From: a virus
Direction: 5' to 3' (one strand)
Virus record (IMG/VR): IMGVR_UViG_3300036846_000457
Span: 1 to 41,551 of that record
DNA length: 41,551 nucleotides
Part shown: positions 635 to 41,551 of the stretch, piece by piece
Layout: the number at the start of each line of letters is the position of its first letter
Numbering within the stretch: position 1 is the stretch's first letter
Made by a program: the position numbers and the translations under genes
The notes under the pieces: generated by a model
What the model was told of the DNA's origin: nothing
Database searches by the model: none
What the model saw: the letters and a program-made list of their open reading frames with translations, nothing else

Positions 635-1915
635 TCAGAAGCCACCTACGTCATCAGCTGACATGAAGCCCGAATTGCCCAGGATCTTGGTGTTGCTCCC
701 ACCGACCGCCTGGATGGTGACCTGTATCCCGCTCGGGTAGTCGCCAGGGCAGTCCCAGGTGCTGGCTCCGAACCCACTGATGGCCTCACCAACAACCCTG
801 TTCGCTTCCACGATCATGAAGTACGGTGCCTCCGCGTTGCTAGGCAAGTTCAGACGCAGCGAGTTCGCTCCCCCGCCACCGCTCTGCGCTCGTAGCATTA
901 CACTGATTCGGTAGCGGCGATTGGCCTGAAAGTGACCTGGGATGCTACCATTCCAGACAGGGTTGCTACCAACTATGTCGCTGGCTGGCCCCTTCACCCG
1001 GCCGACAAAACCTAGCGGCATCGACCAGGGAATTGTAGCTGGAGGACCTATTTCTCCTTGAGGTCCTTGCGGACCTGTTTCTCCTTGAGGCCCAGTGGCA
1101 CCTACTGGTCCTTGAGGTCCTGGAACAGTTGAAGCAGGTCCTGTAGGTCCTGTATCACCAGTTGCTCCAGTGGCACCTACTGGTCCTTGAATACCTTGCG
1201 GTCCTTGTGGACCAGGTACAGTTGAATCAGCACCTGGAGGACCGGTAGCTCCTGTGTTACCAATTGCTCCAGTGGCACCTACTGGTCCTTGAGCACCTTC
1301 TGGACCTTGAATTCCTTGAGGACCTTGTGGACCAGGAACAGTTGAATCAGCACCTGGAGGACCTTCTGGACCAGGAACAGTTGAATCAGCACCTGGAGGA
1401 CCTTCTGGACCAGGAACAGTTGAATCAGCACCTGGAGGACCGGTAGCTCCTGTAGGTCCTATATCGCCTGTTTCTCCTGTTTCTCCTTGTGGGCCAACAG
1501 GTCCTGGAACAGTTGAATCAGCACCTGGAGGACCGGTAGCTCCTGTAGGTCCTTGCGGACCAGGCACAGTTGAATCAGCACCTGGAGGACCTTGTGGGCC
1601 AGTATCACCAGTTAAACCTGGAGGACCTGGAATAATTGACTCCGGTCCTATAGGTCCTTCTGGTCCTGGTGGCCCTGTTTCTCCTGGAGGTCCTTGTGGT
1701 CCTTGAGGTCCTTCTGGACCCGGCGGCCCTCCTGGATCTCCAGGTGGTCCTTGAGGCCCTGTTGGCCCAGGAGCTCCCGCTGGTCCTGGTGTACCAGCCG
1801 GTCCTGTCGCACCTGGTGGTCCTTGAGGACCTGTATCAACAATGGCTATAGTACCAGCAGCTTGATCAACTTTAATAGTTTGTGTTCTGTTGAGTACAGC
1901 GATGTCACTACTCAT
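635..1915 (-). CDS. Collagen-like tail fibre with C-terminal adhesin head
   Basis: This 426-residue protein has three parts: an N-terminal segment of about 28 residues, a Gly-X-Y collagen-like stalk at about residues 29-292, and a C-terminal globular domain of about 134 residues. Collagen-like stalks in phages form trimeric fibres; the globular tip is the likely receptor binder. The tip is homologous to the tip of the protein at 30066-30914. The ATG at 1915-1913 overlaps the previous stop (ATGA). The DNA of the tip, about 638-1040, is clearly GC-richer than its surroundings, suggesting recombination at the stalk and tip boundary. Receptor binding is inferred from architecture only. Confidence 0.88.
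1200..1610 (-). repeat. Tandem and interspersed repeats in the collagen stalk
   Basis: The stalk DNA contains near-identical units coding for [11 protein letters not shown]. Six copies of GADSTVPGP and one variant are present; three lie in direct tandem of 39 bp at about 1327-1440. Such arrays change length readily by slippage or recombination, so fibre length could vary between phage individuals. Confidence 0.85.
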
Positions 1916-2106
1916 GGTGTTACCCAACCAACATCATAATCATTATCAGAAAGTTTAGCTAATACTTGTCCAGTTGTTCCACCTGGAGGAATTGTTGGAG
2001 GCCCTGGAGGACCTGGAGGGCCAGCATTAGTTATAGCTACAGCACCACCAGCTGGCTCAACTATGATGTGATCTGTTTTAGATAATACAATAGTCTGACT
2101 ACTCAT
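1912..2106 (-). CDS. Short collagen-like fibre or baseplate protein
   Basis: This 64-residue protein begins with a segment ([16 protein letters not shown]) resembling the start of the next fibre protein ([16 protein letters not shown]). It has one short GPPGPPGPP stretch and then a segment ending DVGWVTP, of a kind often found before fibre repeats. It overlaps both neighbours by ATGA junctions, so all three genes are translated as a coupled set. It looks like a miniature version of the long fibre, perhaps a stub left by domain shuffling or an adaptor sharing the same docking surface. Confidence 0.75.
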
Positions 2107-2870: not shown

Positions 2871-5564
2871 TCATTGAACTGTTGATCTATCCAATGTACT
2901 AAGTGATACACCAAGTGCAGCTGCTACATCAGCTCTACTATAACCAGACGCAAGCATAGCTTGAGCTCTTAGAGTCTTAGCATTAGTCATAAGTATCTTG
3001 TCTTTAGGCGCAGCATGGTCACGTACTACATCCATGTTAGCATGTGTTAGTATCTCACTTAGTTTAGAATTACTTATAGCACCGGCTTGAATAGCTTCCC
3101 ATTCCTTATCTGTTATTACTATCTTCTTCTTATTAGCACCGGTACGACGGCGGGCTTCTTCTAAAGCCTGGTACTTAATCTTAGTCTCGGTCTTAGCATC
3201 CATTCCTGGGTTGTAGTTCCTCTTAGTTTTCACTGTGCTATTGGCAATTAACTGGGCCTGCCGTTCAAGAGGGGCGTTTGATTTGGATAGGGCCAATTTA
3301 GAATCGAGGGAGGCTACTTCAGAATGGTATGCCCTTTTAGCAGATGGGTTGTATTTAGAAGGGGGAGTTTTAATTGCAGTAAGACGAGCCTCATTAGCCA
3401 TAGCCTTAAGCTTATTAGAATGCTGGGCATAATACAATTCCATTGTGGTACCGGATGAAAGAGTACGAGCATCTGGGGTAATGGCTAATCTCTCAACCTT
3501 TGATTGGATTGGTTTACCAGTTCTCCAATGTACTCTGCCTGTTGGCTCGTATACCTTCTCACCAGTAGTTTTGCTAATAGGACCCCCACTTTTCTGAGAC
3601 CGGGGTCTAAATTCTGGTACACGTACCTCGGCTCCTGCTCTAGAGATTAGAGTAGCCGCGCCACCCTTACCATCTGGTTGACGCTGGTATTCTTCCTTAA
3701 GTGCTTTGATATTATTCTCGTTATAAGATAGTCTGTAATTTAAATCATGTTTCTCAGCATCAATAACAACCATAGAATGTTTAATAGCTCTAGCTATCTT
3801 ATCATGACTAGCACCTTGAATAGTCATATCAGTAATAAGATTAGAAATAATACCCATCTCTGTTTGAGTATTACGCATTGGCTTCATACCAGGATGAGCA
3901 GGATAAGCTGTATGCGGGTCAAAGTTCTTAAGTTCTGCAAGAGCAGGAGTTGTTATAATCTTTCTTGATCTATTTGGAATAACCAAAACAGTATCACCAT
4001 CAAAGTCTGCACCAGACAAATGCTTGGCTACTTCATGATTAATACCAATAGCATCTCTTGCATTACCTAAAAGTTTTCTTGCATCAGAATGATTATTATT
4101 AACAACTAATTCAGGTATCTCAAACGTTCCACCATGTGGATGTCTAATCAAAACAACTACATCACCATTTTTAAAACTAGGGGCATAAACTTGAGTGGAT
4201 GGGAGGGATTGAACTGGAAGAAGAACTTTAACAGCTTGACCTGGCATAGCAGCAGCTTTTAAATCTACAGCTGCTGAATCAGTGGCATCAGCAAAATCAT
4301 TCAACAATCTTTTACGAACAGTAGGATTTGTAAGAGAGTTTATGTTTTCATAAATGTTTTGTCTCTGTTCATAAGTCATATCAAGTTGTGACTTAGCAAG
4401 CATCGGGCTTTGTTTAGACAACATCTGTGATGATAAACTTCTAGTCCACGTATCCCAATTACCTTCAACAGCTCCAGATTCTGGTTCACCTTCTTTGCCA
4501 CCAACAATATTCATTACTGATATTGGTTTAGCATCTCTATGCCCAGGGCGATCTACAATTTGACGAGTAATAGATCCAAATGGAAGATCTGGGTCAGTAG
4601 ATAAAGGTTTCATAGCATCCAATTTATTACCAGTATCATGCTTAGATGTATTAAATTGAAGATCTACGCCAGTTGGTAGACCATCTTTATACATAGCCAT
4701 ACCTTTTAAATAATGCCCATCACCAACTTGAACACGAACCTGAGCATATGGTGTTCCTCCAAGAGAAACATCTGAAACTCCTGGGCGAACATAAATCACA
4801 CCATCTGCTTTAGCTCCACCATCTGGGCCATAAACAACATCAACTCTCTTTTTATCAATTGCAAGAGGACCAGAAGGCTTTGTGTAAGACTTTCCACCAT
4901 CTTCAGAAAAATTACTAATCTGCTGAATCTTTTCTGGGTTTTGCCAAACTTCTTTTTGCGTTGACCCAGGAAGACCAAGAATTTTCATTCTTGTATCTTT
5001 CCCAGTAGCAATCTGTCTTACATTAACTGCGTGAACTTCATACCCTTGTTGCTTAAGCATTTCTACTGCAGTGTCTAATCTTGTTGAGCTAACACCAAGA
5101 TAATTTTCTACACCTTTTCCAACATCAATAAAGCCTTTTTCATCAACTTGTGATTTAAGCATATTAGAAGTTGATATAAGAATATCATTATTGGCGTTTT
5201 CGCCTTGCTTCAAATAATTTCTTACAGTTGATTCTGGTTGCCCCATTCTTTTAGCTATGGCATTAGTTGAATATCCTTTTTCTTTTAATCTTTGAGCCTG
5301 AGCAATATCAGATTGTCTTTGTTGATTTTTCTCAATTGAAATTGTTGCACGAAGCTGAGTTGTTGACATTCCCATGCCTTTAGCGATATCAGCTTCGCTC
5401 ATACCTTTTGCTTTTAATTCTCTTACTCGTTGACTAAATACTTGATTTCTAGTGTTAGTATCTTCTTTATTAGAATCACCCCAACCACCAGAACCCCAAG
5501 GATAACGACCAGAATGCCGTGGTGTTCCATAATGAGCTAGGTATTCTTCTTCAGTAATTATCAT
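2871..5564 (-). CDS. YonO-like single-chain RNA polymerase with helix-turn-helix domains
   Basis: This 897-residue protein shows the double-psi beta-barrel RNA polymerase signature ADFDGD at residues 519-524, whose Asp residues hold the catalytic magnesium in the beta-prime family. A preceding barrel-like part (about 285-310) contains HYLKGMAMYKDGLP with lysines expected in the second barrel. Helix-turn-helix-like segments lie at about 41-75, 90-118 and 866-893. The N-terminus carries HYGTPRHSGRYPWGSG, a tag seen on many phage proteins. The family is known from SPbeta YonO, which transcribes late genes. The ATG follows GAGGAGGTGTTTC. It is placed last but one before the late module. The polymerase call rests on motif and layout; the specific targets are inferred. 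Confidence 0.75.
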   Translation of the reverse strand: MIITEEEYLAHYGTPRHSGRYPWGSGGWGDSNKEDTNTRNQVFSQRVRELKAKGMSEADIAKGMGMSTTQLRATISIEKNQQRQSDIAQAQRLKEKGYSTNAIAKRMGQPESTVRNYLKQGENANNDILISTSNMLKSQVDEKGFIDVGKGVENYLGVSSTRLDTAVEMLKQQGYEVHAVNVRQIATGKDTRMKILGLPGSTQKEVWQNPEKIQQISNFSEDGGKSYTKPSGPLAIDKKRVDVVYGPDGGAKADGVIYVRPGVSDVSLGGTPYAQVRVQVGDGHYLKGMAMYKDGLPTGVDLQFNTSKHDTGNKLDAMKPLSTDPDLPFGSITRQIVDRPGHRDAKPISVMNIVGGKEGEPESGAVEGNWDTWTRSLSSQMLSKQSPMLAKSQLDMTYEQRQNIYENINSLTNPTVRKRLLNDFADATDSAAVDLKAAAMPGQAVKVLLPVQSLPSTQVYAPSFKNGDVVVLIRHPHGGTFEIPELVVNNNHSDARKLLGNARDAIGINHEVAKHLSGADFDGDTVLVIPNRSRKIITTPALAELKNFDPHTAYPAHPGMKPMRNTQTEMGIISNLITDMTIQGASHDKIARAIKHSMVVIDAEKHDLNYRLSYNENNIKALKEEYQRQPDGKGGAATLISRAGAEVRVPEFRPRSQKSGGPISKTTGEKVYEPTGRVHWRTGKPIQSKVERLAITPDARTLSSGTTMELYYAQHSNKLKAMANEARLTAIKTPPSKYNPSAKRAYHSEVASLDSKLALSKSNAPLERQAQLIANSTVKTKRNYNPGMDAKTETKIKYQALEEARRRTGANKKKIVITDKEWEAIQAGAISNSKLSEILTHANMDVVRDHAAPKDKILMTNAKTLRAQAMLASGYSRADVAAALGVSLSTLDRSTVQ

Positions 5565-5576
5565 GAAACACCTCCT

Positions 5577-6137
5577 CTAGAATCTATCAGATACTTTTAT
5601 CGCTTCGATCTGTTTGTCGAAATCTATAATTGTATTCATAATTTCCATTATTGTTTCTGAATATGGTTCGAACACTCTAACTTCATCTCTCTGATAAATA
5701 CGAAGTTCAACCTCAATTGAAAATGGATCAACGCTATATTCTAAACAAAATAATGCAGCATAAATTTCAAGTTGATGCTCTGAAGTTGGTGTCACGCCAG
5801 TTTTCAAATCATGAATTCTTAATTTATTTCTCCGAAAACTAATTGTATCAGCCATGCCAAAACAATTATCTGAGTAAAATAATATTTGCTCGCATTCCAT
5901 TTTATATCCAATGGCATCATTAACATAAGTTGCTAATGATTTATTTACTCTTGATAATCTGACACCAAGTCTTATTGCTTCATGAGCAAGCGCATGTAAA
6001 TCACTTCCTCTTCTTGCTGCCATAGAAGCGGCAAATCTTAGTTCTAGTTTTTCATCATTATAATTAAGCCAATGATAATTGCTAGGACTAAGAAACGCGT
6101 GGCGGCCGTATAACTCCGAATGCGCATTGAAGATCAT
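5577..6137 (-). CDS. PD-(D/E)XK nuclease, RecB/Cas4-like
   Basis: This 186-residue protein fits the RecB-family exonuclease fold: RRGSDLHALAHEAI near the start, a Glu in the KMECEQILFYSD segment, an Asp in CFGMADTISF, and the core IHDLKTG followed by HQLEIYAALF. The DLKTG and Q-x-x-x-Y motifs are diagnostic of PD-(D/E)XK enzymes. The likely role is DNA end processing in replication or recombination. I chose ATG at 6137 because AGGAGG lies nine bases upstream; an ATG at 6155 lacks this. It overlaps the VRR-NUC gene upstream by 50 bases and is followed 12 bases later by the RNA polymerase-like gene. Confidence 0.85.
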   Translation of the reverse strand: MIFNAHSELYGRHAFLSPSNYHWLNYNDEKLELRFAASMAARRGSDLHALAHEAIRLGVRLSRVNKSLATYVNDAIGYKMECEQILFYSDNCFGMADTISFRRNKLRIHDLKTGVTPTSEHQLEIYAALFCLEYSVDPFSIEVELRIYQRDEVRVFEPYSETIMEIMNTIIDFDKQIEAIKVSDRF

Positions 6138-6399
6138 ACAGCACATCCTCCTCATTATCCGGACTTATAAAAGATGCAAAAGACATGCTGTCCAACAAAC
6201 GAATGTAATGATTCTGATTTGGTCGAAGATATGATACCCCAGAAAGCTTAACTTCAAGCATAGCCCACATATTAGAAAACAAAATTATAAGGTCTGGAAT
6301 ACCAGGTTTATAGCTAGAATCATTCTTTAAAACAATACAACCAGGAAACAAAGATTCAAGTTTTCTTATAAGTTTTGTTTGATATTGAGCTTCTCTCAT
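6088..6399 (-). CDS. VRR-NUC domain endonuclease
   Basis: This 103-residue protein matches the short VRR-NUC nuclease type found in phages. GIPDLIILF contains Asp36, MLEVKLSG contains Glu49 and Lys51, and the Q in RPNQNHYI completes the PD-(D/E)XK core. Family members act on branched or flap DNA. The ATG at 6399 follows ACGGGG. The 3' end overlaps the next nuclease gene by 50 bases in another frame. A degenerate member of the phage promoter family lies upstream at 6442-6467, and this is the first gene behind it. Confidence 0.85.
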   Translation of the reverse strand: MREAQYQTKLIRKLESLFPGCIVLKNDSSYKPGIPDLIILFSNMWAMLEVKLSGVSYLRPNQNHYIRLLDSMSFASFISPDNEEDVLYDLQCAFGVIRPPRVS

Positions 6400-6477: not shown

Positions 6478-6993
6478 TTAGACAACATAAGCAAATTTTT
6501 GATGAGTGGGGAAAGTTAAGAGACCATTATAAATAGATTCCATAATGTTTTGACAAAGAAGTCCATGGGTCATAGCAACTTCAATATAATTTCTATATTC
6601 TCTTAAAGTAGCTCGATCAACAATAGGACCATAAAAATACCAATTTGGAACATTAAAGAATTGTCTTGTGTAATGCCATGCAAACCACCTAGGCCTCCAT
6701 ACTATGTTATCTACATGTAAATTTAGTTTATCTCCATCTAACAATATTGGTGTATTGAATAATTCGTTTTCTCCTTCAACAAAAGTTCTAGCAACGATTC
6801 CTTTTGCTGAAAACCTAAACTGATGACCATCTTTCATAAGACCAACAGTTAAATCTCCATTCATTGTGGGGGACAACTTCATTTCTCTTCCGGTTCTAAC
6901 ATTGAAGAATCTTCCATAATTACTAACTTCATAATTCGGAAAATCATCAATTGTTTTTCTAATTTCTGCAACAATTTCGGGGTGTGCTAACAT
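6478..6993 (-). CDS. NUMOD4-like protein, HNH endonuclease relative
   Basis: In this 171-residue protein, FPNYEVSNYGRFFNVRTG is a typical NUMOD4 DNA-binding motif, followed by a segment ending KGIVARTFVEG that in homing endonucleases leads into the HNH core. Here the expected core is only weakly kept (NLHVDNIVWRPRW) and no clear pair of catalytic His residues is seen. It may be a degenerate homing nuclease or a DNA-binding derivative. It stands alone between two non-coding gaps, consistent with insertion as a mobile nuclease gene. The ATG at 6993 has only a weak ribosome binding site. Confidence 0.65.
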   Translation of the reverse strand: MLAHPEIVAEIRKTIDDFPNYEVSNYGRFFNVRTGREMKLSPTMNGDLTVGLMKDGHQFRFSAKGIVARTFVEGENELFNTPILLDGDKLNLHVDNIVWRPRWFAWHYTRQFFNVPNWYFYGPIVDRATLREYRNYIEVAMTHGLLCQNIMESIYNGLLTFPTHQKFAYVV

Positions 6994-7233: not shown

Positions 7234-8421
7234 TCAAAAATTATTTGCCGGAAAATGCCACTTTTTTGCCTCTTCTCGCTCATTAAACGACTTTTTTTCA
7301 GACAATGCCTTTCTCACTGCTCTATCAATAGGTGCGTCACTTATCAAGATGTAGTAGTATAATTTGGTAAAAGGGCTGTCGATTCTATCAATTCGCCCTT
7401 GAGATTGGACAAAATTCTTGTAAGAGTACGTCAATGAATACAACATCATTGAATCTGTTTCTGTGCAATTCCATCCCTCAGAACCAGATGTATATTGGAC
7501 AAGATATACCCATCTATCAGTATTTGGAACAGGTTCTTTTTTATGTCCATTCCATTCGGCAATTGTGATTTCGTTCGAGAGAGTTCTTAGGATATCCAAT
7601 TCATAATTGAACGTATAAAACACGATTAATTTAGGATGACATTTCAAAAACATCTTAAGAGTCTCTATACGACTAGGATCTGTGTAAGCAATTCTCCTCA
7701 TTACACGAAATAACTCTCCGACATCGCTTATAGGACGGCCCTCATAGGGGTGCCAGCGCCTCCGTACGGCCATATCCCATAGTTCATGGTCATATCCTAC
7801 ATCAATATAGTTCAGGATCCTCTGAGTGTGGCTCTCGTAAGTCATCTCCACAAGAATCTCATTACGTAAACGCTCTAGTTTAGCCTCTCCAACATATCTC
7901 TGAATCATTGGGAATTTTACGTATGGAACATAAATGACATGTTCTCGCTTGAATTCGGTTATGTTTTTGTACCACCCGTTTGCTATGAAGACGGGGGCAT
8001 AATCTATCCAAGTATCCCCAGGCGTAGCTGTTAATAGTATCCAGTGGTTTCGTCGCACAATGTGCAGGAAGGATTTGACCCAACTACCACTTCCCACGAG
8101 ACGCTGTTCATCGAATATGAAGAACGCTCCAGTTTCATTTTTATACTTAGCAATATTGTTCCAGGAGTCGATAGTAATTCTACCAGCCACTGTCCCAGAA
8201 TATTCAGCCCCAATTCCAAATCTGGCTCCCTCAGCCAACCAGTCGAGAGAGTCACGCTTCTTTGCTGTGGTGATGACATAAATATCTCGGTCCTTTTCTT
8301 CTTTCATGTAATAAGCCAGGGCTGTAGCTGATTTACCTGTGCCAACAGCTCCATATAAAATTTTTCCATTTCCCAATAAATCTACTGCAGAAGATTGATG
8401 CTCCATCAAGTCGATATCCAT
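7234..8421 (-). CDS. SF2 DNA helicase
   Basis: This 395-residue SF2 helicase has Walker A GAVGTGKS at residues 24-31, a motif II variant DEQR at 104-107 (in place of DEAH), motif III TAT at about 131-133, motif V-like SGSEGWN and motif VI QGRIDRID near residue 345. Such helicases act as DNA unwinding or remodelling enzymes in phage replication. It starts at ATG 8421 after GAGGGTGGC and follows the small gene at 8434 by 12 bases. The 3' end abuts a strong inverted repeat at 7171-7233. Confidence 0.9.
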   Translation of the reverse strand: MDIDLMEHQSSAVDLLGNGKILYGAVGTGKSATALAYYMKEEKDRDIYVITTAKKRDSLDWLAEGARFGIGAEYSGTVAGRITIDSWNNIAKYKNETGAFFIFDEQRLVGSGSWVKSFLHIVRRNHWILLTATPGDTWIDYAPVFIANGWYKNITEFKREHVIYVPYVKFPMIQRYVGEAKLERLRNEILVEMTYESHTQRILNYIDVGYDHELWDMAVRRRWHPYEGRPISDVGELFRVMRRIAYTDPSRIETLKMFLKCHPKLIVFYTFNYELDILRTLSNEITIAEWNGHKKEPVPNTDRWVYLVQYTSGSEGWNCTETDSMMLYSLTYSYKNFVQSQGRIDRIDSPFTKLYYYILISDAPIDRAVRKALSEKKSFNEREEAKKWHFPANNF

Positions 8422-9842: not shown

Positions 9843-10072
9843 ATTACCCCTTTTAATAGTTGCCAATGGTCCGACCCGACCGGACAGCACTACCGCCACA
9901 GAATCCCTTTCCCAGTATCTGTGTAGTGGCATTAGCATGAAAATGTGCGTGGTTCACAGTTCCTGTCTGCTGGTATGCGCACCCCACCAATCTAGCACCT
10001 CTTCAGGACGCCCATCTAAAAGGACGCTCTATGTTACTCCGCAAGTTACAGATAACACTCCTTTCTACTAGG

Positions 10073-10104
10073 AAAAAAAAGAGGGGCAGTTTTAGCACTT
10101 ACCC
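10073..10104 (-). terminator. Rho-independent terminator
   Basis: The minus-strand hairpin GGGTAAGTGC..ACTGCCC (10104 down to 10084) is followed by CTC and eight T. It ends the unit containing the genes at 10710 and 10402 and the structured RNA at 10105-10204. The stem is imperfect. Confidence 0.65.
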
Positions 10105-10204
10105 AGGTGCGTCCATTCGCTTTACACTCTTGCTGTGTAATACTTCGCCAGTGATTCGCAAGCATAATCACCATAAGCTCCGGCACCTACTTTTTTTGGG
10201 TGCC
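10105..10204 (-). ncRNA. Structured RNA with competing helices ahead of a terminator
   Basis: On the minus strand AGGTGC (10188-10183) can pair with GCACCT (10110-10105), closing a three-way junction with hairpins GTGATT/AATCAC (10171-10166 and 10156-10151) and TTACAC/GTGTAA (10140-10135 and 10127-10122). The same strand can instead pair with GGCACC at 10204-10199 just upstream. The two folds exclude each other and a terminator follows at once, as in attenuators or riboswitches. No known riboswitch class was recognised. Confidence 0.5.
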
Positions 10205-10390
10205 ACGAATGCGGTTTTTTGTTTACCTAAACTATAGCTGATCAAGATATAGCGCTCTGTGTACCTTCACAGTCTATTAGGGCGGTCTGACCAGCATGGT
10301 GGAAAGGGGCGGGCTCTACACACATGCTCACAGACGGTAAGGCTCAACTTCCCGAAGTCCTTAGCGCCCTACGCACTGAGCCTAAAGCTG

Positions 10391-10410
10391 TTTAACGTCG
10401 CTCAGTCGAC
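10391..10410 (-). repeat. 20 bp direct repeat, copy 1
   Basis: TTTAACGTCGCTCAGTCGAC on the plus strand matches 10709-10728 at 19 of 20 bases. Both copies lie across the 3' ends of neighbouring genes but are read in different frames, so selection is at the DNA or RNA level or this marks a duplication or recombination point. Confidence 0.8.
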
Positions 10411-10680
10411 TTCCGGAAGATCGTTAGGAATGATTATTGCAGTTCCCATGTTTTCGGCCATTTTTTCACTCATAACTACATTTTCTAACATTTCCCCAAG
10501 CATCTCACGAAGATCTGCTTGAAACACAGTTGTTATTTCCTGTGTTTTTTCATTTCTTCCAACAACAAGACGCATAGTACATGTTCCATCACAGTTGTCA
10601 ATGAAATGAACTTCCTTAAAAGAAGCAACAAGTGCTTCAACAATTTCTTCTGATGATTCCGGAATTTCTGGATTACTCAT
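10402..10680 (-). CDS. Small acidic phage protein
   Basis: This 92-residue acidic protein has two helical parts and a central beta-like stretch (FIDNCDGTCTMRLVVG) with two cysteines. The ATG at 10680 follows AAAGGAATAATATT. It is downstream of the zinc-ribbon gene and probably on the same transcript from the promoter at 10971. The last codons lie in a 20 bp direct repeat. The function is unknown. Confidence 0.7.
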   Translation of the reverse strand: MSNPEIPESSEEIVEALVASFKEVHFIDNCDGTCTMRLVVGRNEKTQEITTVFQADLREMLGEMLENVVMSEKMAENMGTAIIIPNDLPEVD

Positions 10681-11327: not shown

Positions 11328-11786
11328 TTAATTTTCATGAATAGCATATTTCCTATCCAAAGCGTTCTCTTCAATAGTTACAAATAAAGACTGTAAATAG
11401 GCTTTGGTTCCAGTTTTACCATTTACAACCCATTCATAACCTCTGGCAATTAAATCAGCTGTTTTTATATCCGCCCAGTCAATAACTTCGCAAGAATTTT
11501 CATCCAATTGCGTTCTAGTATCTTCAGTCAAAAGAACTATTCTGGGGGGCCTAATATCAAATCTTACGCCAATAGGCAAAAATGGCACGGGTTCGTCACC
11601 CTCTTCTCGAGGGTCTAGGTACTTAACGTTCCACCCATCTCTATCTAATTCTGCTGCAACGGGTTCTGTTAAAAGAACTCCGAAACTTCTAATTCCTGCT
11701 TTGTTGTACGGACCTTCTCTTCCGGAGAAATTTCGTAGGATAATATGAGCATCCTCAATCATAACGCTCTTTGGTTCCTCAGGCAT
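11328..11786 (-). CDS. Putative single-stranded DNA-binding protein
   Basis: This 152-residue protein has a beta-rich body: IEDAHIILRNFSG, GIRSFGVLLTEPVAAEL, GWNVKYLDPRE, PFLPIGVRFDIRPPRIVLLT and KAYLQSLFVTIEENALDRKY. It closely resembles a phage protein type annotated as a single-stranded DNA-binding protein, and an OB fold fits. Its place in the replication module, two genes after the helicase-primase-polymerase, agrees. It lacks the acidic tail common to host SSB. The ATG at 11786 follows GGAGGAATAA and sits directly after the stop of the previous gene. The function is inferred from remembered similarity. Confidence 0.6.
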   Translation of the reverse strand: MPEEPKSVMIEDAHIILRNFSGREGPYNKAGIRSFGVLLTEPVAAELDRDGWNVKYLDPREEGDEPVPFLPIGVRFDIRPPRIVLLTEDTRTQLDENSCEVIDWADIKTADLIARGYEWVVNGKTGTKAYLQSLFVTIEENALDRKYAIHEN

Positions 11787-12065
11787 TTATTCCTCCCTAG
11801 ATTTCTTGAAGGCTTTAATAAAATCAGCAATAACATCGTCATCTAAATCCAGCATATCTCGAAGCAAACTATAAAGAATGTCCAGTGAATATGCTGTTTC
11901 TGCTTCTTGTAAAATAACTCCGCTAAGTTCACGTGCTTTATTTGGAGTTAATGAACCTGTAATTACACTCCCAAATTTTGAATGAGCTGATATACTAACG
12001 ACGCCAACTCCAGCGTAATTTACACCAGCGTTTACATCTAATCTGGCAAGTTCATAATCACTCAC
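11787..12065 (-). CDS. Small protein coupled to the replication polymerase
   Basis: This 92-residue protein starts with GTG at 12065, overlapping the stop of the polymerase gene (GTGA). It has a beta-like N-terminal half (VSISAHSKFGSVITGSLTPNKARELS) and an acidic helical C-terminal half ending AFKKSREE. No known domain was recognised. Tight coupling on both sides, polymerase upstream and SSB-like protein downstream, suggests a replisome accessory. Confidence 0.7.
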   Translation of the reverse strand: MSDYELARLDVNAGVNYAGVGVVSISAHSKFGSVITGSLTPNKARELSGVILQEAETAYSLDILYSLLRDMLDLDDDVIADFIKAFKKSREE

Positions 12066-15000
12066 GACACAAGTTCCTCAAAGGGAACAAATCGTTCAAT
12101 TGATCTTATAGCATCTTTCTTCAATTTATCGAAATATTCCATATCGGTATGAAGCTCATCTATTGATTCACGATATTTTGCTAAATCACGTTCAATCCAC
12201 TGGTAACCCTTTGTTCCAGAAACGTGATATCGCTTCCCATCTTTAACTCTCCACAAAGAATGTCCATCATATTTGACTGGCATGAAACTTCCAGTACGAC
12301 CTACATGTCGTAGACCAGTCAATTCGTTTTGATCTTCGTCTTCAGGACCTAGATACATGGATCCTTGAGTAACTGATTTGACTTCGCAGAGATCGTCGAA
12401 TTCCAACGGTTCGTGCGAAAAGAGTTCTTTGAATACGTAAGGCTCTTGGAATTGAGCCCCGACAGCACTCCAGCCACCATTAACACTCGCGACATATACC
12501 GCATCGTTGATAAGAAGGAATCTGTCATAGGTTGTTTCATGTTCAAAAGTATAGCCGTAATCTCGTCCGAATTGGATGACGAAATCAATAATATCTTGGG
12601 TTGCATTTGGTATTTTAATAGAGTCCGTTTTGATATGCGCAACTTGATAACCTCTGTCTTGAACGGCATGCCGTAAATCTATCATGAATAAAGCGCCACG
12701 TTTAGCTACAATATTATCCTTGTTTCGTAAATCTCTGAATTGATTTTCAAAGCGAGCGCTCGTAAGGCCGTATACGATATTGATGACGATTTTGAGAGCG
12801 TACGCAAGTTGATCAGCACTTTTAGGGTTGTCTTCAGCACGCTCAAGAAACCTAGCGAGTCTACCGTCAAATAAACTTCTGGCTTTGTCGTAATCTTTAT
12901 GCTTGATCGCCATGCGAGCTTCCGTAAGGGCAGTGAAGTTTTTGGTATAAGGGCCAAAGAGATTGAGGCGCTCGATACTGGTCGGATGCATACTCGCAAC
13001 ATCCAGAAGCGCAACGTTGGTATAAAAACCAGGCTCGGAATAAACGTAACCACCTTCACCTGTGACTTCATCACAGTAAGTGCTTTCCTTTCCATCAAAT
13101 TGGTAACCTGGAAACTCTATACTTAGATCCGTGTAGACAAACTGTCTCTGTGGATTCTTGTCGTCTCCAAATATAATTTTAGCAGTATGTTGCTGCGTAG
13201 TGTGATTAACTGATAGTCCAGATAGTTCAGACAAGATTTGACGGGCTACAAAATCTTGTTTTTTATATTCGAATACTGCTTCTGTTGCTATGACATCATT
13301 AACACAGTATTCTTCTACTTTCTCCCACACACCTTCTGGAACTGGTTCATCCCATGCTAAATCCAATTCAAGATGGTGAATTCCAAGCTCTATTTGAAAC
13401 TTCTTCAAACCTTTCTTAGGCGTAGCTATAAAATCATAAATATCAGCATAGGAAATATTGTATGCTTCACCGAACATACCGTCTTGATTTCTATTATCCC
13501 CAAATATAATTCTCTGGCTTAGGTTAAACAATTCCTCGAGACTGTACCCCATGTATCGTCCATATAAAATATGGTTATCATATCGACGATTGTTAAACCC
13601 AACAAGTTTCTGATTAAATAACGGCGCTATATCATCGGCTGTTGGATTAATCATTCTAACAACTGTCGGCGATCCTTGATATTTCCAACACAGTATAAAC
13701 AAATTTGGGTATACTTCAACATCAAAGAAGATAATAGGTTTATCATCAGTATCAATTTCTGGCATGTTATCTTTTCCAACAAATTTCATCGTTTGGACAA
13801 GCTTTATACATGCCAGAGCTTGGTTTGTACTTTTTGCTGCAAATGCTAATACGATTGGCCGCATATCCTCAACATTATAACTTAGCCCATCATTATAAGC
13901 TTCTTCTAAAATATGATGAATGAAATCAATCGATGGTTTCGTTCCTGGATGAATCTCCTTTCGAAGATTTCTTTCAATTAACTCACGAAGCCCACGTTCG
14001 CTTTGAATACTTTTGGTTTCAATCATCTTTTTAGTTTCCTTTTTCGGAAGTCCGCCCGTCAAAGTAGCTACTTCAAGATTGTTACATTTTGTCAATTTTC
14101 TTCGTAGCGAACTATCACCCAAAAGAGTTTTAATCTCAATACCAACATCATAAATTGGATTCAAATCATGAACATTACCCGAGTAAATATAGTGAAGGTG
14201 TATTCCTTTACCACTCTTACTAAGTTCTGTGTAAGTGGGGGGAAATTTAGAAGCCTCCTCTATATTCCTCTCAAGATCTTTTTCCCCATCTTCATCTACT
14301 AAGTCGAAATCAATAACTATATGTTGTTCTGGAACCTTTACAAAATGAAGCTCAGTTGTGTCAATATCTTTTAAGACGGTTTGTACTTTCTCCCATTTAT
14401 ATCTAGGATATCCACTATCTTTTGCTAATTGTGCAGGTTGATCAGGATATAAAGTATTAAATGCAGAATCATAATAAATCGGATCATAATCTGATAATTC
14501 AATTACATACGAAGTATCTGGTATAAATGGGGTTGGGCCTTGTTCTGGCAATCCTTTAAACCCAATATAAACACTTCTGTATTCTTTTTCCCCCATAACA
14601 TGCCGATCCTTAAGTTCTGCGAAATAACTACATAATTCATCCCTTACTTCATGATACTGAAGACGTTTAACAATGTTTGCTTCTTCACAATACTGCTTGT
14701 ATAAATCCCATGCGTGTTTAAGTTGAATTCCATCTTGCGATTTGAATACATCGAAATATGCTTCCACAAAGTTGTAAAATGTATCAGTCAACATCATCAT
14801 TTTTGTAGGAAGATAATTTTCGTAATAGAATTTACCCATTTCACGATATCTTTGCAAACATTTGAATGCTATAGCGCCTAGCTCATATTTTATATTTTCT
14901 ATGAGAATATGATATCTATTTGGTTCAATCTTTACGCCAGTAGGATGAACATCAATAAGTCGTCTTGTATTTCCAGATTTTGCGTCGGAGATTTTTACTG

Positions 15001-15832
15001 GTTTGTTTGTTCCAACCACTACGAAAGCATTGGGTCTTATCGTGAAAGCTGATCTATATTTTACATTAATATTCATCGAATCGTGACCAACAATAGAATT
15101 GAGCTTTGTGTTGTCCTCAACTTTTGATAAATCACCATCGTGCTGAATTGCTACTAGCGGGTTGCTTTCAAATGACTCCATTGCAAACGTACCGTTGCTG
15201 CTTGTCAATGCTTTGGCTTCAAACGTTGCCACATAGCCAGCAAACAATTTTTCTATTATACTAATTACAGTAGATTTACCTGTTGCCGGTGGGCCATAGA
15301 ATACAAGAAACTTTTGAATCCAGCGTGAATCTCCTGATACAATTGCTCCTATAGCCCACTCTATTTTGTCTCGTTCTTCAGGAGAATATAGAACTCCTAG
15401 AAGCTCATCCCAACAATCGGTTTTACCAGGTTCTAGAGAATATGGAAGTTTTTTACTTACGTAATCTTTTTTTCTAGTTTCTGTGTTGGCAAAGGTTATA
15501 TGTTCATCTAATTGCTGATAACTACTATTATGTGGTAAATTTCGTACAAACTTGTTAAATCTTTCCCAACTACCACTACTAAAATTTCTAGTATAAAGCG
15601 GTTCTAGGACAGCACCTTTAATTCTAGAATCTTCCACAAAGTCATGTATATCGTTATCTACAAGTCTTCTGACATCAAATTCATTAGTGGACCACATACC
15701 AAGATTCTCATCCCAGACAGCGTAGAAAGATCCTCCTCTAATCATTAGATCATCAACGTTATCTACAATCCAATCTGGGTATGCTTGTGGGATGCCTTTA
15801 GTCTCCTTTACTTTAATTCGGTAGAAGTCCAC
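12062..15832 (-). CDS. SF3 helicase, AEP primase and family B DNA polymerase in one protein
   Basis: This is one unbroken frame of 1256 residues. Residues about 90-300 are a D5-type SF3 helicase: Walker A GPPATGKST (180-188), a Walker B-like segment ending QHDGD, sensor GTNKP (274-278) and NTRR (288-291). Residues about 440-600 match an archaeo-eukaryotic primase: IDFDL (507-511), SGKGIHLHY (540-548) and GIEIK (564-568). Residues about 700-860 are a 3'-5' exonuclease: FFDVEVY (702-708), GFNNRRYDN (745-753) and YCVND (842-846). Polymerase motifs follow: A DVASMHPTSI (944-953), B KIVINIVYG (1014-1022), C KTDS (1068-1071). Start GTG at 15832 follows AGGGGGTGAT. It probably unwinds, primes and copies the phage DNA. 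Primase after helicase reverses the usual order. Confidence 0.9.
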   Translation of the reverse strand: MDFYRIKVKETKGIPQAYPDWIVDNVDDLMIRGGSFYAVWDENLGMWSTNEFDVRRLVDNDIHDFVEDSRIKGAVLEPLYTRNFSSGSWERFNKFVRNLPHNSSYQQLDEHITFANTETRKKDYVSKKLPYSLEPGKTDCWDELLGVLYSPEERDKIEWAIGAIVSGDSRWIQKFLVFYGPPATGKSTVISIIEKLFAGYVATFEAKALTSSNGTFAMESFESNPLVAIQHDGDLSKVEDNTKLNSIVGHDSMNINVKYRSAFTIRPNAFVVVGTNKPVKISDAKSGNTRRLIDVHPTGVKIEPNRYHILIENIKYELGAIAFKCLQRYREMGKFYYENYLPTKMMMLTDTFYNFVEAYFDVFKSQDGIQLKHAWDLYKQYCEEANIVKRLQYHEVRDELCSYFAELKDRHVMGEKEYRSVYIGFKGLPEQGPTPFIPDTSYVIELSDYDPIYYDSAFNTLYPDQPAQLAKDSGYPRYKWEKVQTVLKDIDTTELHFVKVPEQHIVIDFDLVDEDGEKDLERNIEEASKFPPTYTELSKSGKGIHLHYIYSGNVHDLNPIYDVGIEIKTLLGDSSLRRKLTKCNNLEVATLTGGLPKKETKKMIETKSIQSERGLRELIERNLRKEIHPGTKPSIDFIHHILEEAYNDGLSYNVEDMRPIVLAFAAKSTNQALACIKLVQTMKFVGKDNMPEIDTDDKPIIFFDVEVYPNLFILCWKYQGSPTVVRMINPTADDIAPLFNQKLVGFNNRRYDNHILYGRYMGYSLEELFNLSQRIIFGDNRNQDGMFGEAYNISYADIYDFIATPKKGLKKFQIELGIHHLELDLAWDEPVPEGVWEKVEEYCVNDVIATEAVFEYKKQDFVARQILSELSGLSVNHTTQQHTAKIIFGDDKNPQRQFVYTDLSIEFPGYQFDGKESTYCDEVTGEGGYVYSEPGFYTNVALLDVASMHPTSIERLNLFGPYTKNFTALTEARMAIKHKDYDKARSLFDGRLARFLERAEDNPKSADQLAYALKIVINIVYGLTSARFENQFRDLRNKDNIVAKRGALFMIDLRHAVQDRGYQVAHIKTDSIKIPNATQDIIDFVIQFGRDYGYTFEHETTYDRFLLINDAVYVASVNGGWSAVGAQFQEPYVFKELFSHEPLEFDDLCEVKSVTQGSMYLGPEDEDQNELTGLRHVGRTGSFMPVKYDGHSLWRVKDGKRYHVSGTKGYQWIERDLAKYRESIDELHTDMEYFDKLKKDAIRSIERFVPFEELVS

Positions 15833-15848
15833 ATCACCCCCTATCGTT

Positions 15849-17104: not shown

Positions 17105-18007
17105 TTAAATCTTATCGTAAATGACTCCATCAACATTAAAATCGAGCAATATACTTTGCTCAGTTCCATTCACAAATCTAGAATTAAAGGCCTCAAATAT
17201 ACCAAAGTCGATATAACCATCCCCATCACTGTCTTTTAACCATCCAACGACGGCTCCGGCACTAGATCTTGGTACACCAAGAGCATCATATGCTTCATTT
17301 AAAAACACATGCCCATATGCTAGAAGACGATTATTCAAAAAGTTTTGCTGACATTGAATAAACATGCGATTCAATTCAGAATCTCTTTTCCAATTATCAG
17401 AATACTCGTCAAAGAATTTTGCATAGGGGGAATATTTGTTCGGATCTACAACTTTAACAAGTTGCGTATTACCATCAGCGTCGGTAACAACTTCAGTCTT
17501 TGCCGCATGATAAATATCGAGTTCTCTTTCAGCTCCAAGTTCTTCACGAACTCTATCTCGATAATCATCATACGCCTTTTGAACAGCCGCATATGCTGCG
17601 ATTAAAGCGCTATTTCGTCGAGTCAATTGAACATGAGACCCAGTAAGAAGTCCAATTGAAGCAACACCTATAAGAACTGATGGCCCATAAAGCTTTACAA
17701 TTTTAAAACTAGCATGGCCATAAGCATAAATTGTTTTTGTATGTTGAACTACTGCATCTTCACCAGTAACAACTTCGGAAGTATGGTTATTAGGAAGTAG
17801 TATAGTTTCTTTAGGCTTTAAAATTTCAATATCTTTTTGAATTTCGTCAAGAGTAGCTGAAAGTTTCAATGTTGCACGACAAGCCAAAACGGTACTTGTA
17901 AGTGTTCCGGCAACACCAGCAGCAAAGAAAATATGAGGAGAATTCTTCTTAACGATTAACAACTGCCTACTTAATTTAGTAATTACCGATGTCGGTACTA
18001 GTTTCAT
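17105..18007 (-). CDS. DUF6353-like membrane protein 1
   Basis: This 300-residue protein has two membrane segments at about residues 26-46 (FFAAGVAGTLTSTVLACRAT) and 112-128 (VLIGVASIGLLTG). The phrase SPHIFFAAGVAGT and the segment ending LTRRNSALIAAYAAV match DUF6353 as I know it from phages. The C-terminus has LNEAYDALGVP and VVGWLKD, a module shared with two neighbours. It is tail-to-head coupled with the gene upstream (overlap at 18004-18007) and followed nine bases on by the anchored acidic protein. The family role is unknown; a membrane-bound replication or host-takeover complex is conceivable. Confidence 0.8.
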   Translation of the reverse strand: MKLVPTSVITKLSRQLLIVKKNSPHIFFAAGVAGTLTSTVLACRATLKLSATLDEIQKDIEILKPKETILLPNNHTSEVVTGEDAVVQHTKTIYAYGHASFKIVKLYGPSVLIGVASIGLLTGSHVQLTRRNSALIAAYAAVQKAYDDYRDRVREELGAERELDIYHAAKTEVVTDADGNTQLVKVVDPNKYSPYAKFFDEYSDNWKRDSELNRMFIQCQQNFLNNRLLAYGHVFLNEAYDALGVPRSSAGAVVGWLKDSDGDGYIDFGIFEAFNSRFVNGTEQSILLDFNVDGVIYDKI

Positions 18008-19467: not shown

Positions 19468-20223
19468 TTATAGTGTTTTGGTATAATTATATTCAAATGT
19501 GATACAAGGACGACCATCTTCAGTTAATGCTGTTGAAAATGTTAATTCCATTAGTTTATCTGAAGTCCAACCAATATTATTTGATGCCGTAGTTTGTCGA
19601 AGACCTATCATATAATAGAAATCATCAAGCGTAGCGTAATCATGTTTCAATAATTTAGAATTAAGTTCGTTTACGGATCTCCTTAATTTCTCCATATCAC
19701 AAGCAAAATATCTCATTGTAAACATTTCACAGCATAAAACGTTACCTGGGCCTATTACTAGTACATCTTGAGAAGGAGGGGGCTTAATTTCTACCTGTTC
19801 GGCGACCACTTTATCTCGAATGGATCGATCTTTATTTGGACCGAACTCTTCAACCACCTTGCTTCGATAATCAGAATATGCTCGTTCTGTGAAAGCGAGT
19901 AGAGCGTTAGCGGCAATTGTTTTTTTGGTTTCCATTCGTTTAGCACCAACGATGCACACAATCGTAGAAACTGTGGAAATTGCCGGTGGAATATAGACTT
20001 TCCAGACAAGTTGCGTTCGTTCCTTTAGGCGTTCTCTTGGATTAACCGCCGGGGCATTTTTCTCTTCTTGCTCCCGGATCATATTAGCTGCATCGAACGA
20101 AGCTTTTGCTACCAAAAACGCAGTAGTTAACGTCCCAACTCCAGCAGCAACAGAGAAAATAAGAGGAGAATTAGCCTTTATGTTCTTTAAAACACTTCCG
20201 CTGAATTGAGACAGTTTACTCAT
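19468..20223 (-). CDS. DUF6353-like membrane protein 2
   Basis: This 251-residue protein has two membrane segments at about residues 19-39 (PLIFSVAAGVGTLTTAFLVA) and 73-91 (YIPPAISTVSTIVCIVGA), the second followed by a KTIAANALLAFTERAYSDYR helix like that of the protein at 17105. This supports distant paralogy within DUF6353. The C-terminus has LDDFYYMIGL and NIGWTSD, the shared module. I place the start at ATG 20223, overlapping the previous stop (ATGA), not at the longer frame's first ATG. The role is unknown. Confidence 0.8.
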   Translation of the reverse strand: MSKLSQFSGSVLKNIKANSPLIFSVAAGVGTLTTAFLVAKASFDAANMIREQEEKNAPAVNPRERLKERTQLVWKVYIPPAISTVSTIVCIVGAKRMETKKTIAANALLAFTERAYSDYRSKVVEEFGPNKDRSIRDKVVAEQVEIKPPPSQDVLVIGPGNVLCCEMFTMRYFACDMEKLRRSVNELNSKLLKHDYATLDDFYYMIGLRQTTASNNIGWTSDKLMELTFSTALTEDGRPCITFEYNYTKTL

Positions 20224-20369
20224 CGTGCTTTCCGCATCTCCCTTACAAAAATCCAGATCAGCCAGAATCCACCAGTAATGCATGTTAAAAGAACATCAAC
20301 GATAAATTTTAAAAAGCCGTAACGCTTCCTCTTAGGCATTTGATAAACATAATAATTAGTATCGACCAT
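20220..20369 (-). CDS. Small membrane protein
   Basis: This 49-residue protein starts MVDTNYYVYQMPKRKRYG and continues with a hydrophobic stretch LKFIVDVLLTCITGGFWLIW, then a basic end (VREMRKAR). The T-x-G-G-F-W-L-I-W pattern resembles small two-helix membrane proteins such as phage superinfection-immunity-like peptides, though at this length that is tentative. The ATG at 20369 follows AAAGGAG. It is behind promoter P3 and the folded leader at 20395-20456, and coupled to the DUF6353-like gene. Confidence 0.7.
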   Translation of the reverse strand: MVDTNYYVYQMPKRKRYGFLKFIVDVLLTCITGGFWLIWIFVREMRKAR

Positions 20370-39853: not shown

Positions 39854-40282
39854 TTACTCCTTTTTATGCTGCCAAAGCCTTGTATCACCAGGAATACGAT
39901 CTAAAACTACTTTAGGATAACCTTTTTTACTACCAAAATGTATTTCATTATGAGTATATTGAGTAGTTGTAATCAAAAATTCAGGATCAAATAACCACTC
40001 TTCTCCATGAATTATATCATCTACAACTACTGGATTAATATGATGAATAAGAATCGCTTCGTGTATTTCATACCCAAATATACCTAAATCACAGCCATTA
40101 TCCCTGATAATAACGTTTTGACGAGCCTGTTTCCACTCATATGAAGTATAAAATTTCTGGTTAAGATATCGATCAAACCCAAATGTTGATCGCCCAACTG
40201 ACCCATGTAATTTTAAATATTCTAATCGTTCTTGAAAGGTATCAAACCTTAGAAGCTCAGAATATCGCTTAATATCTGTCAT
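39854..40282 (-). CDS. HNH endonuclease near terminase
   Basis: This 142-residue protein has an HNH core with VIIRDNGCDLGI, then ILIHHINP (His80, His81 and Asn83) and TQYTHNEIHFG (His111 and His115). HNH proteins next to terminase genes assist DNA cutting during packaging in HK97-type phages. The start is uncertain: three ATG codons lie in a row at 40288-40280 in the end of the gene before it; I use 40282. Confidence 0.75.
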   Translation of the reverse strand: MTDIKRYSELLRFDTFQERLEYLKLHGSVGRSTFGFDRYLNQKFYTSYEWKQARQNVIIRDNGCDLGIFGYEIHEAILIHHINPVVVDDIIHGEEWLFDPEFLITTTQYTHNEIHFGSKKGYPKVVLDRIPGDTRLWQHKKE

Positions 40283-40622
40283 CATCATATGAATCATCAT
40301 ATTGTTCGCTGTATGAATCTACTTCTCGGCCAGCATAAGAACGCATAGCATCTAATGCGGCAGCGTATAGTTCCTCGACCTTCTTAGCCGAAGCCAAAGT
40401 ATCTACTCTAGCGCCAAGAAGCTCATTTTCTCGATAAAGACGTTCTTGTTCTAGTCTTTCTCTTGTCGATCCAAGCTTCAAATAGTGAGTAATTACTTGA
40501 GCTGAAGCAGTTCCTTCTCCAAGTTGCTTTTCAGCCAAATCAATTGCAAGAGAGACCAGTTGATTTTCACGATTTTCATCAGTTGTGGCTGGTCGGCGAC
40601 CTTGTCGACGTCTACCAGGCAT
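40269..40622 (-). CDS. Putative terminase small subunit or packaging accessory
   Basis: This 117-residue protein starts MPGRRRQGRRPATTDENREN. A basic start, a helical part (LVSLAIDLAEKQLGEGTASAQVI) with THYLKLGSTRERLEQERL, and a coiled-coil stretch to VEELYAAALDAMRSY make up a type common just before terminase genes. The ATG at 40622 follows AGAGGAGAATAT. It ends in an acidic tail. The small terminase role is inferred from position. Confidence 0.6.
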   Translation of the reverse strand: MPGRRRQGRRPATTDENRENQLVSLAIDLAEKQLGEGTASAQVITHYLKLGSTRERLEQERLYRENELLGARVDTLASAKKVEELYAAALDAMRSYAGREVDSYSEQYDDSYDDDRY

Positions 40623-40917: not shown

Positions 40918-41551
40918 TATGTGACAGAGGCGGTCCAAGAGGTTGACCAAGTTTGTGGCCCAACTAGACCATCAACACTCAGACCCTTCTCCGCCTGGAA
41001 CTGACGAGCTACGCCAGATGATTGAGGACCATACACACCATCCACCCCTATGTTCCACCCCCTATTCGCCATCTGCTGTTGCCACGTGCGAACGTTTTGT
41101 GTATCCACTCCACCGTAAGCTCCGGAATGACAATGTGGGTCGGCTGATGGTTCCCCAAGATAATCGGAGGCTGGGTAGGGAAAGGGAGGTGCGGCTCCTC
41201 CTGGTTTTGGTGGACTTGGAGTTGGTTGTGGAGGAGTTGGAGAAGGAGTTACTCCGCCGGCCATTTGGATAACGCGATCCATTGGGAAGCCGTTGCCGCA
41301 ATCTACGTGTCCTCCACCACCAGACCCCAAATCAATGTGTTGACAGATTCCTCTTCCATTACCTTGTGCTTCACCAGGACTCAATCTTTTAAGTGGAACT
41401 CCAAACGCTGCACATTCCTCAGCGATCCATTTTGCGCAATTATCAAGCATGTTTGGATGTTGATCCCATTCAGCTGTTGACCAAGCAGCGAATGCACACA
41501 ACTCCATTTGAACCGCAACAGGATTGTAGTTTGCAGCAGTCCAAGCTTTGT
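40917..41551 (-). CDS. Endolysin, C-terminal part (continues in bases 1-394)
   Basis: This is the 3' part of the amidase, including the terminal repeat. After the amidase domain comes a proline-rich linker (TPSPTPPQPTPSPPKPGG), then a C-terminal peptidoglycan-binding domain of about 60 residues with QNVRTWQQQMANRG and VDGVYGPQSSGVARQFQ, ending VDGLVGPQTW. This is the PG_binding_1 pattern with D-G-x-x-G-P repeats. This domain arrangement is common in lysins of phages from Gram-positive hosts. The stop shares a base with the holin start. Confidence 0.9.
   Translation of the reverse strand, partial: KAWTAANYNPVAVQMELCAFAAWSTAEWDQHPNMLDNCAKWIAEECAAFGVPLKRLSPGEAQGNGRGICQHIDLGSGGGGHVDCGNGFPMDRVIQMAGGVTPSPTPPQPTPSPPKPGGAAPPFPYPASDYLGEPSADPHCHSGAYGGVDTQNVRTWQQQMANRGWNIGVDGVYGPQSSGVARQFQAEKGLSVDGLVGPQTWSTSWTASVT
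41366..41551. repeat. Terminal direct repeat, right copy
   Basis: This copy matches bases 1-186 except G for A at 41424. See the left copy for meaning. The repeat lies entirely in the endolysin coding region. Confidence 0.95.

Follow-up and report, generated by a model that had tools for sequence, protein, structure and literature searches.

Lactococcus phage 1706 encodes GP55 (ABV91262.1), which was purified as one protein and has helicase, RNA primer synthesis, DNA polymerase, and 3'-5' exonuclease activities; it copies single-stranded (ss) M13 DNA de novo (Nucleic Acids Research 2025, PMC12205980). Fusions of a superfamily 3 (SF3) helicase, a PrimPol, and a family B DNA polymerase (PolB) were named HelPrimPolB in Nucleic Acids Research in 2020, citing a 2016 analysis, and that text describes motif C and KxY as profoundly different (PMC7544198). 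Here we examine a protein of 1256 residues (P0001) encoded at 12062-15832 of the IMG/VR virus record IMGVR_UViG_3300036846_000457; "the window" refers to this whole stretch of 41,551 bases. The protein is very probably the replicative DNA polymerase of a tailed phage, a HelPrimPolB member that works like GP55. The case is built on the fused frame, its motifs, the predicted helicase and polymerase folds, and full-length homology to a four-activity enzyme. From the analogy with GP55, we infer the activities of the window protein, its dimeric form, its preferred nucleotides, and its priming site.

Unwinding by GP55 depends on UTP/dTTP, and priming occurs at 5'-CCAAC-3' with GTP preferred (PMC12205980). 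GP55 is chiefly dimeric, and its priming requires the helical domain (aHD) located after the archaeo-eukaryotic primase (AEP) domain (PMC12205980). Its essential residues are known from mutants: K189A does not unwind DNA, D509A does not synthesize primers, Y655 and F667 are each essential for priming, D712/E714 mutants lack exonuclease activity, and mutation of D949 abolishes polymerase activity (PMC12205980).

Four catalytic domains in one open frame

The replicase frame lies on the minus strand. (The plus strand of 12062-15832 is rich in stops, and a plus-strand reading was rejected on that account.) Relatives of the replicase begin at the same MDFY as the window protein. The gene and its parts are as follows.

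12062..15832, minus strand: HelPrimPolB / GP55-type replicase gene, a single 1256-aa open frame with a GTG start
15837..15842, minus strand: Shine-Dalgarno-like AGGGGG, 4 nt before the GTG, read from the sequence
14543..15832, minus strand: N-terminal extension and SF3 (D5/DUF5906-type) helicase with its C-terminal region, residues 1-430
15269..15295, minus strand: Walker A GPPATGKST, residues 180-188
14033..14392, minus strand: AEP (PriS-like) catalytic domain, residues 481-600
14303..14311, minus strand: AEP motif I, D508-F-D510, with D508 and D510 invariant in the 154 members aligned below
13763..14032, minus strand: helical domain equivalent to aHD of GP55, residues 601-690, helices in the AlphaFold model
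13148..13735, minus strand: 3'-5' exonuclease domain, residues 700-895
12065..13147, minus strand: family B polymerase palm, fingers, and thumb, residues 896-1256
12977..13003, minus strand: polymerase motif A, D944-VAS-M-H949-PTS, with His at the place of the Tyr of most PolBs
12620..12631, minus strand: polymerase motif C, KTDS, residues 1068-1071 (K1068-T-D1070-S)

The domain order is therefore SF3 helicase, AEP, small helical domain, 3'-5' exonuclease, and family B polymerase, and every catalytic motif of the helicase, AEP, exonuclease, and polymerase was found. Besides those listed, these are SF3 motif C (N276) and the arginine finger (R290/R291); the AEP motif S538...H545-L-H547 and third acidic residue E566; exonuclease motifs ExoI (D704/E706), ExoII (N748/D752), and ExoIII (Y842/D846); and polymerase motif B (K1014...Y1021-G1022). 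PHROG 4210 ("DNA polymerase") matches residues 1-1255 (E = 0, 1802 bits), Pfam's PF19263 (DUF5906, a D5-like SF3 helicase) matches residues 178-291 (E = 8.6e-13), and phrog_13901 (primase/helicase) matches residues 502-554. A preliminary description of this DNA had already placed the motifs of three replication activities in this single frame, with the helicase at the N-terminus. Its domain assignments and their order are correct, and all of its motif positions (Walker A at 180-188 and those of the AEP, the exonuclease, and polymerase A, B, and C) agree with ours.

The window protein aligns with GP55 over nearly its full length and without rearrangement (1300 columns, of which 39% are identical and 56% similar). 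By region, identity is 34% in the SF3 core, 56% in the AEP, 41% in aHD, 50% in the exonuclease, and 52% in the polymerase palm and fingers. All of the essential residues of GP55 are kept (K189 as K186, D509 as D510, Y655 as Y652, F667 as F664, D712/E714 as D704/E706, and D949 as D944).

We also aligned 154 non-identical full-length members of the family; among them are GP55, another four proteins of phages, and 148 proteins from metagenome and genome loci. Catalytic residues are invariant or almost so across them, well above chance. The invariant positions are G180, G185, K186, T188, N276, R290, and R291 in the helicase; D508, D510, S538, H545, and E566 in the AEP; F664 in the helical domain; D704, E706, D752, Y842, and D846 in the exonuclease; and D944, H949, N1018, Y1021, G1022, and K1068-T-D-S in the polymerase. 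Such an alignment shows which residues never change, and two unusual ones in the polymerase centre are among them.

A search of the Protein Data Bank (PDB) with the single sequence gave no significant match, but a profile built from nine members of the family matched E. coli Pol II with its positions 923-1067 (E = 9.4e-8) and also reached the NrS-1 helicase (E = 0.0022). The AlphaFold model of residues 1-435 has a mean predicted local distance difference (pLDDT) score of 90.3 and a predicted template-modelling (pTM) score of 0.87; its best Foldseek matches were the African swine fever virus PrimPol, the SaPI5 primase-helicase, and mpox E5, with NrS-1 also found. The model of residues 431-1256 (pLDDT 89.1, pTM 0.70) matched the family B polymerases 9N (E = 4e-17), KOD, Pol II, and Pol alpha.

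For the AEP, the evidence is of other kinds. When family members were scanned singly, with E up to 1, PF09250 (Prim-Pol) matched 26 of 35 and AEP-TOTE 17 of 35. With hhalign, the AEP of the replicase aligned with the AEP parts of the Eggerthella and Listeria phage proteins discussed below (E = 2.7e-4), with DxD, sGkGxH, and the third motif in register. An AEP-only profile gave only chance matches against PDB with HMMER, so the assignment rests on the motifs, the weak Pfam matches in many members, hhalign, and the biochemistry of GP55. The DxD, sxH, and third acidic motif point to membership of the AEP superfamily.

We propose that the N-terminal SF3 motor would open the duplex, that the AEP and the helical domain would prime the single strand thus exposed with short RNAs, and that the C-terminal PolB would extend these primers with its own 3'-5' proofreading. 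A neighbouring ssDNA-binding protein probably assists the replicase, and one chain of the dimer perhaps primes for the other. Among the window proteins scanned (these took in some of the small frames of unassigned function), there was no second polymerase or primase, and no DnaA-type initiator was found in those scanned. Thus, the window replicase is the sole candidate replicase that we saw. The preliminary description suggested that the protein could be a near self-sufficient replisome, and its homology to GP55 supports this well.

Helicase preference, polymerase centre, and the single frame

Several observations weigh against the view that the window protein is a replicase of the GP55 kind. 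Its AEP, the weakest part by curated profile, scores E = 0.014, under the cut-offs; in the PDB fold search, matches to the polymerase part prevailed, and the AEP fold had no independent match. No activity measurement was found for the window protein or a close relative. Finally, the SF3 core is no more than 34% identical to that of GP55, and the Walker B region reads AIQHDGD instead of LIDADSD, so details of the helicase may differ.

This last point leads to the alternative that survives best, which is compatible with a GP55-like replicase: the primase and polymerase would work as in GP55, but the helicase of the window's clade would use ATP or any NTP in place of UTP/dTTP. Among the catalytic parts, the SF3 core has diverged most (34% identity to GP55, versus 50-56% for the AEP, exonuclease, and polymerase core), which makes the nucleotide preference of the helicase the point that is least transferable from GP55. 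Also, the AIQHDGD form is the rule in the family (about 145 of 154 members). On the other side, the canonical SF3 catalytic residues are all common to GP55 and the window's clade. We consider a different nucleotide preference a serious possibility, if somewhat short of an even chance.

A second alternative accepts the family but supposes that one activity has been lost or altered: with Lys in motif C and His in motif A, the protein would be a weak or specialised polymerase (for lesion bypass, for example), and a polymerase of the host would carry out bulk synthesis. The window protein does lack the canonical PolB pair, that is, the two Asp of a DTDS motif C and the Tyr of motif A; it has KTDS and H949. 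The Lys in place of the usual first Asp of motif C and the His in place of the usual steric-gate Tyr are found in all 154 members. The placement of His949 at the steric-gate position of PolB is based on the alignment of motif A and on general knowledge of these enzymes (Y416 in RB69). In its text, the GP55 paper makes no mention of a steric gate (PMC12205980). Archaeal B2 polymerases with one Asp in motif C have weak polymerase activity and perform lesion bypass (PMC7544198), as this alternative would have it. However, GP55, with the same KTDS and His, replicates the 7.2-kb M13 ssDNA fully in 0.2 min (PMC12205980), and the motif C position is also without Asp in unfused phage relatives, which have Asn there (NTDG/NTDA). 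A polymerase that is impaired in this way is therefore very unlikely.

As KTDS is invariant in 154 of 154 members and is held by the active GP55, it is a signature of the family and no defect; the idea that KTDS marks an inactive polymerase was rejected on the same grounds. The replacement of DTDS by KTDS had been pointed out before, and it is indeed present, but it is not peculiar to the window protein. The four unfused phage PolBs that we compared (from Eggerthella, Enterococcus, Seuratvirus, and Listeria phages) have NTDG or NTDA as motif C and Tyr in motif A, so in this small comparison Lys and His appear to accompany the fusion. A more speculative proposal, which we think rather doubtful, is twofold: that the Lys and His pair is an adaptation to very short RNA primers from the protein's own AEP, with altered sugar discrimination, and that helicases of the AIQHDGD clade use a nucleotide unlike that of GP55.

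At least 80% of the fused replicase is covered at one place in 252 phage records, usually annotated as "DNA primase/polymerase"; IMG/VR yielded 456 matching stretches, and bacterial or archaeal genomes yielded 108. The rarity that the preliminary description implied is thus not borne out: the fusion has a group name and hundreds of relatives. Of 175 matching loci, drawn from contigs of IMG/VR and of bacterial and archaeal genomes and from phage records, 163 have the fused protein as a single open frame; among the other 12, contig ends truncate seven, and a stop, frameshift, or insertion breaks five. That the fusion is an artefact, from an assembly join or a read-through error across neighbouring genes, might be suggested by the adjacent unfused PolB and AEP-SF3 genes of Eggerthella phage EL753P1 and Listeria phage LM 4-14-1, but it is refuted by these relatives, by the different order of the unfused genes (AEP before SF3), and by the purification of GP55 as one protein, and we give it practically no credence.

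Some copies of the gene are interrupted. In two bacterial-genome copies it is broken near residue 905 (L159, 7194-8459, about 1.26 kb; L176, 2252-2862, about 0.61 kb); a search of these interruptions for introns gave no Rfam match. In L067 there is an in-frame stop near residue 912.

The replication module and other features of the window

The first 186 bases of the window are repeated at 41366-41551 (99% identity). As this 186-bp repeat joins both ends, the window is a circularly complete map of the virus genome. Its G+C content is 39.6%. Bases 1-25000 had no near DNA match among annotated phages except for one 104-bp piece. The genes below accompany the replicase.

11328..11786, minus strand: phage ssDNA-binding protein, likely partner of the replicase (PF24083 Phage_ssDNA_bind, 3.4e-53; phrog_4787)
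7234..8421, minus strand: accessory SF2-type helicase (phrog_62 DNA helicase, 3.6e-54), kept in L008, L011, and RosaAsantewaa
6088-6399: VRR-Nuc, of the replication/recombination module
5577..6155, minus strand: RecB-like exonuclease (phrog_3953, 1.7e-73; PF10926)

Streptomyces phage RosaAsantewaa keeps the order of these genes, the replicase, and a gene for an 897-aa protein (2871-5564, minus strand), each with a counterpart there. The 897-aa protein matches PHROG 4291 ("RNA-dependent RNA polymerase") over its full length (E = 0). It has helix-turn-helix (HTH) motifs at both ends and, around residue 520, an RNA-polymerase-type DFDGD (GADFDGDTV), as in two-barrel RNA polymerases. The RosaAsantewaa counterpart is 55% identical and is annotated just as an HTH protein.

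A pistol self-cleaving ribozyme (Rfam RF02679) lies about 1.65 kb downstream of the replicase, at 10346-10411 (minus strand; 35.9 bits versus a gathering score of 34.5), and overlaps the stop codon of a small frame (10402-10680). The ribozyme is also found, at up to 68 bits, in ten distinct relatives (L008, L010, L011, L013, L014, L016, L018, L024, L025, and L030), downstream of the replicase and 1.2-4.4 kb away in the seven that were measured. Neither RosaAsantewaa (L003) nor the part of phage 1706 that was retrieved (L002) showed it. The roughly 400 bases that follow it (9940-10345, minus strand) have stem-like segments and no convincing gene on that strand. This segment may hold further structured RNAs; it had no Rfam match at the gathering score.

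Two DUF6353 paralogues are encoded near the replicase (17105-18007 and 19468-20283, minus strand). A distant relative of them (29% identity) is encoded upstream of GP55 in phage 1706, and a protein of Rhodococcus phage ReqiPoco6 that is noted as similar to that relative is annotated as a membrane protein. It is possible that the DUF6353 proteins are a membrane anchor for replication. The window also has two HNH-type endonuclease genes (6478-6993 and 39854-40300, both minus strand), of which the first has a NUMOD4 motif like those of homing nucleases, and a gene for a 430-aa collagen-like protein with GPP/GxY repeats (635-1927, minus strand), which is probably a tail or fibre protein.

Comparison with known systems

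Primase-helicases of the NrS-1 / SaPI5 type have both an AEP and an SF3 helicase and are structural matches to the helicase part of the window protein. However, their AEP is N-terminal and they have no fused PolB, whereas in the window protein SF3 (residues 131-310) precedes the AEP. Pfam did not find the HBD domain (PF22763) in the window protein, although an unfused relative (P0007) has one. So, the window protein does not have the AEP-HBD-SF3 order of NrS-1-type PrimPols.

The unfused PolBs of PHROG 1252 (from the Enterococcus, Seuratvirus, Listeria, and Eggerthella phages) are distant homologues of the polymerase part, with 21-29% identity, and are encoded by separate genes. Eggerthella phage EL753P1 has an AEP-HBD-SF3 gene (785 aa) with a PolB gene (665 aa) immediately after it; in Listeria phage LM 4-14-1, the PolB gene (562 aa) comes first and an AEP-SF3 gene (605 aa) second. 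Because the fused protein has SF3 before the AEP and no detectable HBD, simply joining neighbouring genes such as those in these two genomes end to end would not produce it.

Much closer are the PHROG 4210 proteins from phages of Gordonia, Rhodococcus, Arthrobacter, and Streptomyces, which align over 100% of the length at about 48-55% identity. For this protein in ReqiPoco6, the GenBank record of the phage notes a COG3378 primase part, a COG0417 PolB part, and similarity to a Lactococcus phage. GP55 shares with the window protein the four-domain order, the KTDS of motif C, and the His of motif A; it differs in being 61 residues longer, with a big insertion near the C-terminus, and its phage infects Lactococcus. 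The HelPrimPolB group, which we compared by its description in the text, has SF3 and PrimPol N-terminal to PolB and a divergent motif C, like the window protein, and we found no feature that separates the window protein from it.

A single protein that can open, prime, copy, and proofread DNA is of use both for the study of minimal replisomes and for amplifying DNA with no primers added; GP55 has already served to make that case. By its fused domain order, full-length homology, essential residues, and divergent motif C, the window protein belongs to the HelPrimPolB / GP55-type replicases. The design of the fused replicase was already known, and the window protein is a fairly divergent further member (34-56% identity to GP55, depending on the catalytic domain).

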